Shown one piece after another: positions 24,478 to 64,000 of a stretch of 64,000 nt of DNA (position 1 is the stretch's first letter; every line of letters begins with the position of its first letter). The position numbers and the translations under genes are program-made. Under the pieces are notes generated by a model. It made no database searches. It was not told the origin of the DNA and was given only the letters and a program-made list of their open reading frames with translations. The stretch comes from Blastococcus sp. TBT05-19 (GTDB lineage: Bacteria; Actinomycetota; Actinomycetes; Mycobacteriales; Geodermatophilaceae): NCBI RefSeq assembly GCF_003319095.1, contig NZ_QOHI01000004.1, forward strand, positions 1-64,000, read 5' to 3'.

Positions 24478-25424
24478 CGAGCACCCTCGACGCCGGTCCC
24501 GCGGTCGAGCGGGTCGTCACGGGCTACCTCGACCACCTCACCGTCGAGCGCGGCCTGGCGGCGAACACCATCGCCTCCTACCGGCGCGACCTCCGGCGCT
24601 ACACCGAGTACCTCGGCGCGGCCGGCGTCCGCGGGCTCGGGGAGGTGGCCGAGTCCGACGTCTCCGGTTTCCTCGCGGCCCTGCGGCGGGGCGACGACGA
24701 GCACCCGCCGCTGTCGGCGACGTCGGCGGCGCGCGCCGTCGTCGCCGTCCGGGGGCTGCACAAGTTCGCGCTGCTCGACGGGCTCGTCGTCGACGACGTG
24801 GCGCACGAGGTGCGCCCGCCCGCCCCCGCCCGCCGGCTGCCCAAGGCGGTGCCGGTCGAGTCCGTGGTCGCGCTGATCGAGGCGGCCGGGTCGCTGGAGG
24901 GGCCCAGGGGACTGCGGGACCGGGCGCTGCTGGAGGTGCTGTACGGCACCGGCGCACGCATCTCCGAGGCGGTCGGGCTCGCCGTCGACGACCTGGACCG
25001 CGGCCAGGCCACCGTGCGGCTGTCGGGCAAGGGCGGCAAGGAGCGGATCGTGCCGGTCGGCAGCTTCGCCCTGCGCGCCGTCGAGGAGTACCTGGTGCGC
25101 GCCCGCCCGGCCCTGGCCGCGAACAGCCGGGGCGGGGTGCGCGGAGGAGCGCTGTTCCTCAACGTGCGCGGCGGGCCGCTGTCGCGGCAGAGCGCGTGGT
25201 CGATCCTGCGCACGGCGGCCGAGCGGGCCGGCCTCGGCGACGTCTCGCCGCACACCCTGCGGCACTGCTTCGCCACCCACCTGCTCGAGGGCGGGGCCGA
25301 CGTGCGCGTGGTCCAGGAGCTGCTCGGCCACGCCTCGGTGACGACCACGCAGGTGTACACGCTGGTCACCGTCGACCGGCTCCGCGAGGTCTACGCGACC
25401 AGCCATCCCCGGGCGCTGACCTGA
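24474..25424 (+). CDS. xerD: Site-specific tyrosine recombinase XerD
   Basis: The 316-residue recombinase resolves chromosome dimers at dif with XerC and FtsK. It has the N-terminal SAM-like domain ([20 protein letters not shown]). The catalytic residues are all visible: Arg in GTGARISE, Lys in KGGKER, His-x-x-Arg in [10 protein letters not shown], His in [10 protein letters not shown], and nucleophile Tyr in QVYTLV. No ATG, GTG or TTG precedes the conserved N-terminus in frame. CTG at 24474, 7 nt after GGAGG and overlapping the ald stop, is the best start. The first in-frame GTG (about 24646) would remove much of the DNA-clamp domain. Position matches Rv1701. Confidence 0.92.
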
Positions 25425-62555: not shown

Positions 62556-62610
62556 GGGACCTCCGGGGGAGATGGGCGGCTGTGGGTAGGACCGCCGCCT
62601 GTGACGAAAG

Positions 62611-63204
62611 TCAGCGGTCGGTGCGGGTGAACAGCCACCGGGCGAACGCGGCGTCCTCGGCGAGCTCGGTGCGCCAGAGCACCGACAGCCCGAAGGTGCC
62701 CGGCGGGACGACGAGCAGCGGGCTGCCCGGGTCGAGGACGTCGTCGTCCAGGTCGTCGGTGTGCGGCGTCGGCCCGGGGGACTCGGGCATCAGCAGCGCG
62801 CCGTCGTCGCCGGTGCCGTCGAGGGCCGCGCTGATGAAGGCCAGCCGGCCGCTGGGCACCGCGACGGGATCGCCGGCCTGATCACCGGTGACCGGGAAGC
62901 GCAGGGCGAGCTCCAGCGTCCCGCGGTAGTCGTCGGCGTTCGCCTGGACGACGGCGACGCTGCCGTCGTCGGCGCGGAAGACCTCGAGCCAGCCTTCGTC
63001 GCCGATCTCCGGGTCGGTGAGGACGATCGCCGCGGTCCCGCTGCCGACCGGGACGCCAGTGAGCTCGTAGTCCAGCCGGGGGACGAGCGCCTCGTAGGCC
63101 TGGCCGGACATCCCGCGCCACTCCGGCAGCAAGGTCTCGTCCAGGGCCAGGAACGGCTCACCGTTGGTCCAGAAGCGGCCGACGTGCGTCCAGGCGACAG
63201 GCAT
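62611..63204 (-). CDS. Protein of unknown function
   Basis: The 197-residue soluble protein has WTNGEPFLALDETLLPEWRG near the start, YELTGVPVGSGTAAIVLTDP, GWLEVFRADDGSVAVVQANA and a C-terminal WRTELAEDAAFARWLFTRTD. I do not recognise a family with confidence; the layout faintly recalls Imm21-type proteins. Start ATG 63204 is the first Met before the compact domain. A longer open frame to 63690 is shadow. The region upstream, 63205-63798, is non-coding. Confidence 0.7.
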   Translation of the reverse strand: MPVAWTHVGRFWTNGEPFLALDETLLPEWRGMSGQAYEALVPRLDYELTGVPVGSGTAAIVLTDPEIGDEGWLEVFRADDGSVAVVQANADDYRGTLELALRFPVTGDQAGDPVAVPSGRLAFISAALDGTGDDGALLMPESPGPTPHTDDLDDDVLDPGSPLLVVPPGTFGLSVLWRTELAEDAAFARWLFTRTDR

Positions 63205-63323
63205 GCCGTCATCGTCTCCCGGCCGCCCGGTGACCAGCCGGTCGGGGCGGTGTCCACGCCGGCGGTCCCTGCCGAGAGAGAGGGAGTGCCCTGCGCGGCC
63301 GTGTCCCGGCTCCTCTCCAGATG

Positions 63324-63351
63324 AGTTGACATAACGTCGATTATCGGCGTG
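63324..63351 (-). other. dif: Candidate dif site (XerCD recombination site)
   Basis: Read on the minus strand: an 11-bp XerC-type arm CACGCCGATAA, a 6-bp centre TCGACG, and an 11-bp XerD-type arm TTATGTCAACT. The 11-6-11 architecture, the inner GATAA and TTATGTCAA match the actinobacterial dif pattern as I know it, and resemble E. coli dif (XerD arm TTATGTTAAAT). The site lies in a gene-free region, as expected. It would mark the replication terminus. Confidence 0.75.
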
Positions 63352-63702
63352 ACATCCAGGCGGGCCGAGAGGGGTTGATGATCTTGCCGACCAGCTCGCC
63401 ATGACCAGCTCGCTATCGCCGAGATCCTGCACCGCGACGCCCGTCGCCGTGCGACGTCGGCGGTCCACGTCGCTCGGCAGGCCGGTGGTCGGTCGACAGG
63501 TCACACTCGCCGTGGTCGCCGGCCCGCGCCGCGCGGCCGGCGACGCTCGGCTGGTCCGGATCCCGGCCTGCCGACCCCCGCCCGACTCCCCCGTCGTCGA
63601 TCGTGATCTCTGTTGATCTTGATGCAGCCATCGGGCGTCTCGATCGTGCGCCTGTCGCCCGCCCGAGCCCCGTCGGCCGCTCGGGTCCACCCCTCTCCCC
63701 GT

Positions 63703-63757
63703 CCGCCTACACCCTGGTAATTACGTAACGGTGACGTAATTACCAGGGTGTAGGCGG
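63703..63757. repeat. 24-bp perfect inverted repeat with AT-rich core
   Basis: Arms at 63703-63726 and 63734-63757 are exact complements around a 7-nt loop (aacggtg). The inner part (GGTAATTACGT) is unusually AT-rich for this genome; the outer part is GC-rich (CCGCCTACACCC). No T tract follows on either side. It ends 41 nt before the lipoprotein ATG. Confidence 0.85.
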
Positions 63758-63798
63758 CTCGACGGGCGCCGGGCGGCTGGTGTTCGTAGGGTCGAGGC

Positions 63799-64000
63799 AT
63801 GCACATCAGACGACCGCTCGCCGCGCTGTTCACCGCTCTGGCGCTCTTCGGTGGCGGCGCCACGATGACCGCCTGCCAGGCCGCGGGGCAGGACCAGAAC
63901 GACGGGACGACCGACGACAGCGAGAACACCGGCGGCAACGATCCGGGCAGCGAGGAGCAGGGCAACCTGCCCGACAACAGCCAGCCGGACACCGAAGGCG
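63799..64000 (+). CDS. Putative lipoprotein, truncated by the window end
   Basis: Only the first 67 residues are visible. They begin MHIRRPLAALFTALALFGGG with a type II signal peptide and a lipobox ending MTAC, so the mature protein would be lipid-anchored at the Cys near residue 26. The following stretch is Asp/Asn/Gly/Glu-rich and probably a flexible linker. TAGGGT (63787-63792) ends 6 nt before the ATG, suggesting a leaderless mRNA. The C-terminal domain lies outside the window. Confidence 0.75.
   Translation, partial: MHIRRPLAALFTALALFGGGATMTACQAAGQDQNDGTTDDSENTGGNDPGSEEQGNLPDNSQPDTEG

Follow-up and report, generated by a model that had tools for sequence, protein, structure and literature searches.

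A predicted chromosomal dif site of Blastococcus and the GGGGGAG strand switch around it

Introduction

The dif site published for Frankia alni is a 28-bp element in which two 11-bp arms flank a 6-bp centre (Kono et al. 2011, PMC3025954). According to that article no actinobacterial dif had been confirmed experimentally at the time, and its main text, the organism tables of the supplement aside, names neither Blastococcus nor the Geodermatophilaceae. In Corynebacterium the architecture imparting sequences G(A/T/C)GGGGGA and (T/C)GGGGGAG have been described, and these octamers have already served to locate the dif sites of Corynebacterium aurimucosum and C. resistens (PMC2830990, PMC3350403). 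The function of most architecture imparting sequences has been called unknown (PMC5993296). For E. coli, the KOPS motif GGGNAGGG is described together with its role (PMC13342612).

Here we analyzed a 64,000-nucleotide stretch of Blastococcus sp. TBT05-19 DNA (the window), near the right end of which a sequence-only reading had proposed a dif site. A literature search, run without supplements, returned no paper in which Blastococcus and 'dif site' both occur. From sequence comparison we conclude, with very little doubt, that the 28-mer at this position is the chromosomal dif of Blastococcus, at which Xer recombinases would separate fused sister chromosomes. The element belongs to a well-known kind; what is added here is its sharp placement by polar motifs and the description of its neighbourhood.

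Results and Discussion

A 28-mer with the layout of dif

The candidate had been drawn as an 11-6-11 layout on the minus strand, and this layout proved to be real, with arms and centre as claimed. On the minus strand of positions 63324-63351 the site CACGCCGATAATCGACGTTATGTCAACT consists of the XerC-type arm CACGCCGATAA (63341-63351), the central hexamer TCGACG (63335-63340) and the XerD-type arm TTATGTCAACT (63324-63334). It shares its length of 28 bp and the 11-6-11 layout with the Frankia alni dif, to which it is identical at 24 of 28 bases: 11/11 in the XerC arm, an arm assigned by analogy, and 10/11 in the XerD arm, whose columns are strongly conserved. Unlike the arms, the centre agrees with that of F. 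alni at 3 of 6 bases only. The centre is the variable part of the site among relatives, in which CGACG, GCACA, CAACG, CCACA and other variants were seen.

One copy per genome, and no better candidate elsewhere, had been predicted together with the layout. Both predictions held in the draft genome (G000; 3,924,978 bases in 25 contigs), where the full 28-mer was the sole match at up to three mismatches and the degenerate dif pattern CCGATAATNNNNNTTATGTCAA gave no second match at the same threshold. The 28-mer was likewise the sole match at up to three mismatches in the window, with none in 100 shuffles. In a collection of named genomes, seven stretches, all from Blastococcus, matched the final 24 bases of the 28-mer exactly.

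The survey of relatives covered 60 genomes, our own included, and used the pattern NNNNCCGATAATNNNNNTTATGTCAANT with at most one mismatch. Fifty genomes carried a match, each exactly one: 23/23 in the genus, 12/13 in the rest of the family and 15/24 among other members of the order. The reversed control of the pattern matched once in the 60 genomes (G058). No match to NNNNCCGATAATNNNNNTTATGTCAANT at this threshold was found in nine genomes, all from outside the family. The lone miss within the family was G024, from another genus (locus L063), which has a diverged dif-like site, TCCTCCGATAAGACACGTTATGACAAGT, found beside the palindrome that is described below.

Polar GGGGGAG repeats

The strongest evidence for dif is a strand switch of the heptamer GGGGGAG, which the sequence-only reading had not foreseen; the heptamer is contained in octamers of the kind that located dif in Corynebacterium. 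To the left of dif the window holds 44 copies on the plus strand and none on the minus strand (3738-62571, the last at 62565-62571), all pointing at dif; these are raw positions, counted with no split assumed. The first reversed copy lies just to the right of dif, on the minus strand at 63586-63592, and 14 stretches of 20 kb farther right on the same contig held 2 plus and 123 minus copies. The switch in this genome thereby falls within a 1-kb interval that contains dif. Permuted heptamers that were numerous in the window showed less bias (GGAGGGG 10:10, GGGAGGG 13:8, GGGGAGG 20:5), and two rare ones were also one-sided (GGGGGGA 6:0, AGGGGGG 2:0). Six stretches on other contigs of this genome, contigs not assigned to a replichore, were mostly one-sided for GGGGGAG.

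Samples of two relatives, G008 and G017, whose replichores were divided at dif, were used to rank octamers by strand bias; our own contig served as the test. The most polar octamer, CGGGGGAG, counted 134:16 in the two relatives together and 109:0 in our contig, and the third in rank, TGGGGGAG, counted 31:0 in our contig. The second, GCTGGCCG, had no polarity there (163:164), and the same was true of several others. GGGGGAG changed strand in G008 between the stretches sampled at 2440 and 2684 kb, with dif at 2523 kb, and in G017 between those at 1665 and 1850 kb, with dif at 1834 kb; in the samples of both genomes the bias faded far from dif, towards the origin. This was further supported by 20 dif-centred loci of 20 kb each, from 16 genomes of the genus (our own included) and four others of the family, out of 36 family genomes surveyed. 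The counts were 154:3 on one side of dif and 0:152 on the other, with 3 of 309 copies misplaced, and the best switch interval included dif in all 20 loci.

As in Corynebacterium, CGGGGGAG and TGGGGGAG are polar here and locate dif; unlike the Corynebacterium case, the setting is another actinobacterial family with higher G+C, and the motifs turned up unsought. With the Corynebacterium octamers, the dif of Blastococcus can be placed with a precision of about 1 kb. Strong strand bias and a switch at dif, the properties by which architecture imparting sequences are recognized, were both found for GGGGGAG. The heptamer also resembles the E. coli KOPS in being G-rich, in pointing from the origin to dif and in switching at dif. 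Judged by these sequence patterns, GGGGGAG is likely an FtsK-orienting or other architecture sequence of the Geodermatophilaceae. KOPS itself, GGGNAGGG, was not polar in the G008 samples (42:46) and little so in those of G017 (59:45), and its excess in our own genome (71:26) came mostly from GGGGAGGG (38:5). Neither GGGNAGGG nor GAGAAGGG, a B. subtilis motif, showed consistent polarity, and both were rejected as polar guides.

Position of the terminus

The proposal had also placed the replication terminus at the right end of the window. This part was borne out by the GGGGGAG strand switch and by the location of dif opposite dnaA in 11 relatives, rather than by the GC skew on which it was to be judged, which is weak. 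The arc from dnaA to dif made up 46.4-53.8% of the chromosome in all 11 relatives checked, which were chosen for having dif on a contig that spans the whole or nearly the whole chromosome (G042 is in three contigs, the others in one). For G024 the position of dif was that of the diverged site linked to its palindrome. The arc was measured in the relatives, since dnaA and dif of our own genome are on separate contigs. G008, G017 and G021, relatives assembled as one contig each, have the site as their only match to the pattern, and it lies opposite dnaA in all three.

No extremum of GC skew was seen within the 64-kb window alone, and on our own contig the skew was weak, -0.003 left of dif (63 kb) and -0.011 right of it (280 kb). 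Across 20 sampled stretches of roughly 20 kb each, mean skew was +0.009 to the left and -0.012 to the right in G008 (Mann-Whitney p = 0.03), and +0.010 and -0.001 in G017 (p = 0.14, not significant). GC skew was rejected as proof of the terminus, being too weak in the window, in the 280 kb of our contig right of dif and in the two single-contig relatives sampled. Dif almost certainly sits where the two replicated halves of the chromosome meet, and the terminus is placed although this chromosome has too little GC skew to reveal it.

Genes, palindrome and pyrimidine tract beside dif

The gene-free setting first described for the site was correct: about 594 bp around dif (63205-63798) separate two divergent conserved genes. 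Dif is crossed by a mechanically called open reading frame of 359 aa (62611-63690, minus strand), in which the conserved protein begins only at 63204. This protein (197 aa, MPVAWTHVGRFWTNGEP...), on the XerD side of dif, is encoded at 62611-63204 on the minus strand and belongs to no Pfam family. On the XerC side a small gene begins at 63799 on the plus strand and continues past the window end at 64000; its 78-aa product is lipoprotein-like by look alone and likewise has no Pfam family. TAGGGT at 63787-63792 on the plus strand, 6 bp before the ATG of this gene, is a possible -10 element, and most aligned rows of relatives show TTCGTAGG(G/C)TCG followed by ATG. Relatives of both gene products are also encoded next to the dif of other genomes.

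Between dif and the lipoprotein-like gene lies a near-perfect palindrome of 55 bp (63703-63757), about 350 bp from dif and about 69 bp upstream of the gene, with its core TTACGTAACGGTGACGTAA at 63721-63739. At no more than one mismatch the core occurred once each in 19 of the 60 genomes (genus 15/23, other family 3/13, other order members 1/24), and the reversed control of the core pattern matched in one (G048). Comparison at more mismatches covered 32 family loci, with G027, G028, G030 and G032 left out. Our script recognized a lipoprotein start in 30 loci; its ATG was 69-71 bp from the centre of the palindrome in 28 of these, and 84 and 90 bp in the other two. The distance from this centre to dif was 317-412 bp in 30 of the 32 loci, 488 bp in G004 and 1370 bp in G019. 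No lipoprotein start was recognized by the script in G019 and G025; in G019 it was seen by eye next to the palindrome, where it normally lies.

Judged by these spacings, the palindrome probably serves to regulate the lipoprotein gene from upstream, rather than being a part of dif. Could it instead be an accessory site of dif, acting in synapsis, as a roadblock or in organizing the terminus from about 350 bp away on the XerC side? Its position is consistent with such a role, as the core lies on the XerC side in 18 of the 19 genomes (in the exception, G042, it is on another contig), in 16 of them at 366-407 bp from dif; the 30 loci at 317-412 bp point the same way, as does G025, where the palindrome is near dif without a recognized lipoprotein start beside it. 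We nevertheless find an accessory role unlikely, because the distance to the lipoprotein start is kept much more tightly than that to dif. Two further observations argue against it: in G019 the palindrome is 1370 bp from dif yet remains close upstream of the lipoprotein start, and a shorter core, CGTCACNGTGACG, occurs twice in our own genome, both times away from dif. Among ten genus genomes tested, the shorter core was present in 0 to 7 copies per genome.

The palindrome has arms that pair better within than between genomes, with 3.28 vs 2.07 of 6 positions at 10-15, 3.88 vs 3.08 at 16-21 and 3.69 vs 2.87 at 22-27. We make no firm claim of a hairpin, because the arms are near-perfect in some loci and poorly paired in others. 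A few relatives (3 of the 20 dif-centred loci) have extra cores on the XerD side, some of which adjoin the apparent end of a reverse-strand gene. No paper containing the sequence letters of the palindrome was found.

Fifteen bp outside the XerC arm lies a pyrimidine tract, GAGAGGGG on the plus strand at 63367-63374 (CCCCTCTC in the orientation of dif). CCCYTYYC starting 24-21 bp before dif was found in 18 of 23 genus loci and in 5 of 10 other family loci, a count that omits three further family genomes (G027, G030, G032). By eye, 13 dif loci from other families (of 15 such matches) had no shared palindrome or pyrimidine tract. Dif in this family may be more than a bare 28-mer and belong to a small control locus that is conserved, in which the tract is held nearly fixed outside the XerC arm and the palindrome stands by a lipoprotein gene that is kept at the terminus; a palindrome-binding protein would then couple recombination at dif, or the arrival of FtsK, to the expression at division of an envelope protein. 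We offer this as an improbable speculation.

Xer and FtsK genes and the reading of the 28-mer

The sequence-only reading had reported xerD in the same window, and an XerD-like gene is indeed present at about 24.5-25.4 kb. This tyrosine recombinase gene (24525-25424, plus strand, start provisional; TIGR02225, PF00589, PF02899) matched TIGR02225 at 24525-25415 of contig C14 with 322.7 bits, just below the cut-off of 329.6 and the best of eight matches in the genome. The second-best match to the XerD model (C20:42757, 263.3 bits) is, at a guess from its rank, XerC. The genome has one FtsK gamma domain, on contig C18, so that XerD-like, XerC-like and FtsK-gamma genes are all present. Around xerD we read by eye what are presumably pyrG, a Nudix hydrolase gene, ald, parA, scpA and scpB, and such a gene order around xerD is usual in actinobacteria. 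Since xerD is surrounded by its usual actinobacterial neighbours, its lying 38 kb from dif is no evidence for the terminus.

With these genes, resolution could proceed as follows. XerC and XerD would bind the two 11-bp arms of each of the two dif sites in a chromosome dimer. Exchange at the TCGACG centre would be triggered by FtsK, the motor located at the division septum, and would yield two monomers. The GGGGGAG repeats, aimed at dif from both sides, may lead FtsK or another machine that reads polarity.

Mobile elements that use XerCD, phages among them, carry dif-like sites, and the genome has eight tyrosine-recombinase matches; the 28-mer might accordingly be the dif-like attachment site of such an element after integration. 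We regard this as highly improbable. The site is present in one copy, vs the two expected from an integrated element, and GGGGGAG switches strand at exactly this spot. Furthermore, the flanking genes are conserved, with relatives of the XerC-side gene in all 19 other dif-centred loci and of the XerD-side gene in at least 14 of the 19, among the matches listed. A reading of the 28-mer as an operator or a chance match, with the true dif elsewhere or in one of the gaps in which a 25-contig assembly could hide a second site, is scarcely credible given the lack of a second candidate at up to three mismatches, the polarity switch within 1 kb, and G008, G017 and G021, in which the site is the sole pattern match and faces dnaA. 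The 28-mer is best read as dif, and with dif and the switch both in hand it becomes directly testable whether an actinobacterial FtsK reads GGGGGAG.

Among the genes near dif in relatives, weak side matches to the DnaA model were seen 4-32 kb from the site in two genomes (G038:C1:4137085-4144634 and G042:C1:3237462-3241557). These are perhaps insertion-sequence ATPases, and in either genome further matches of this type occur a long way from dif.
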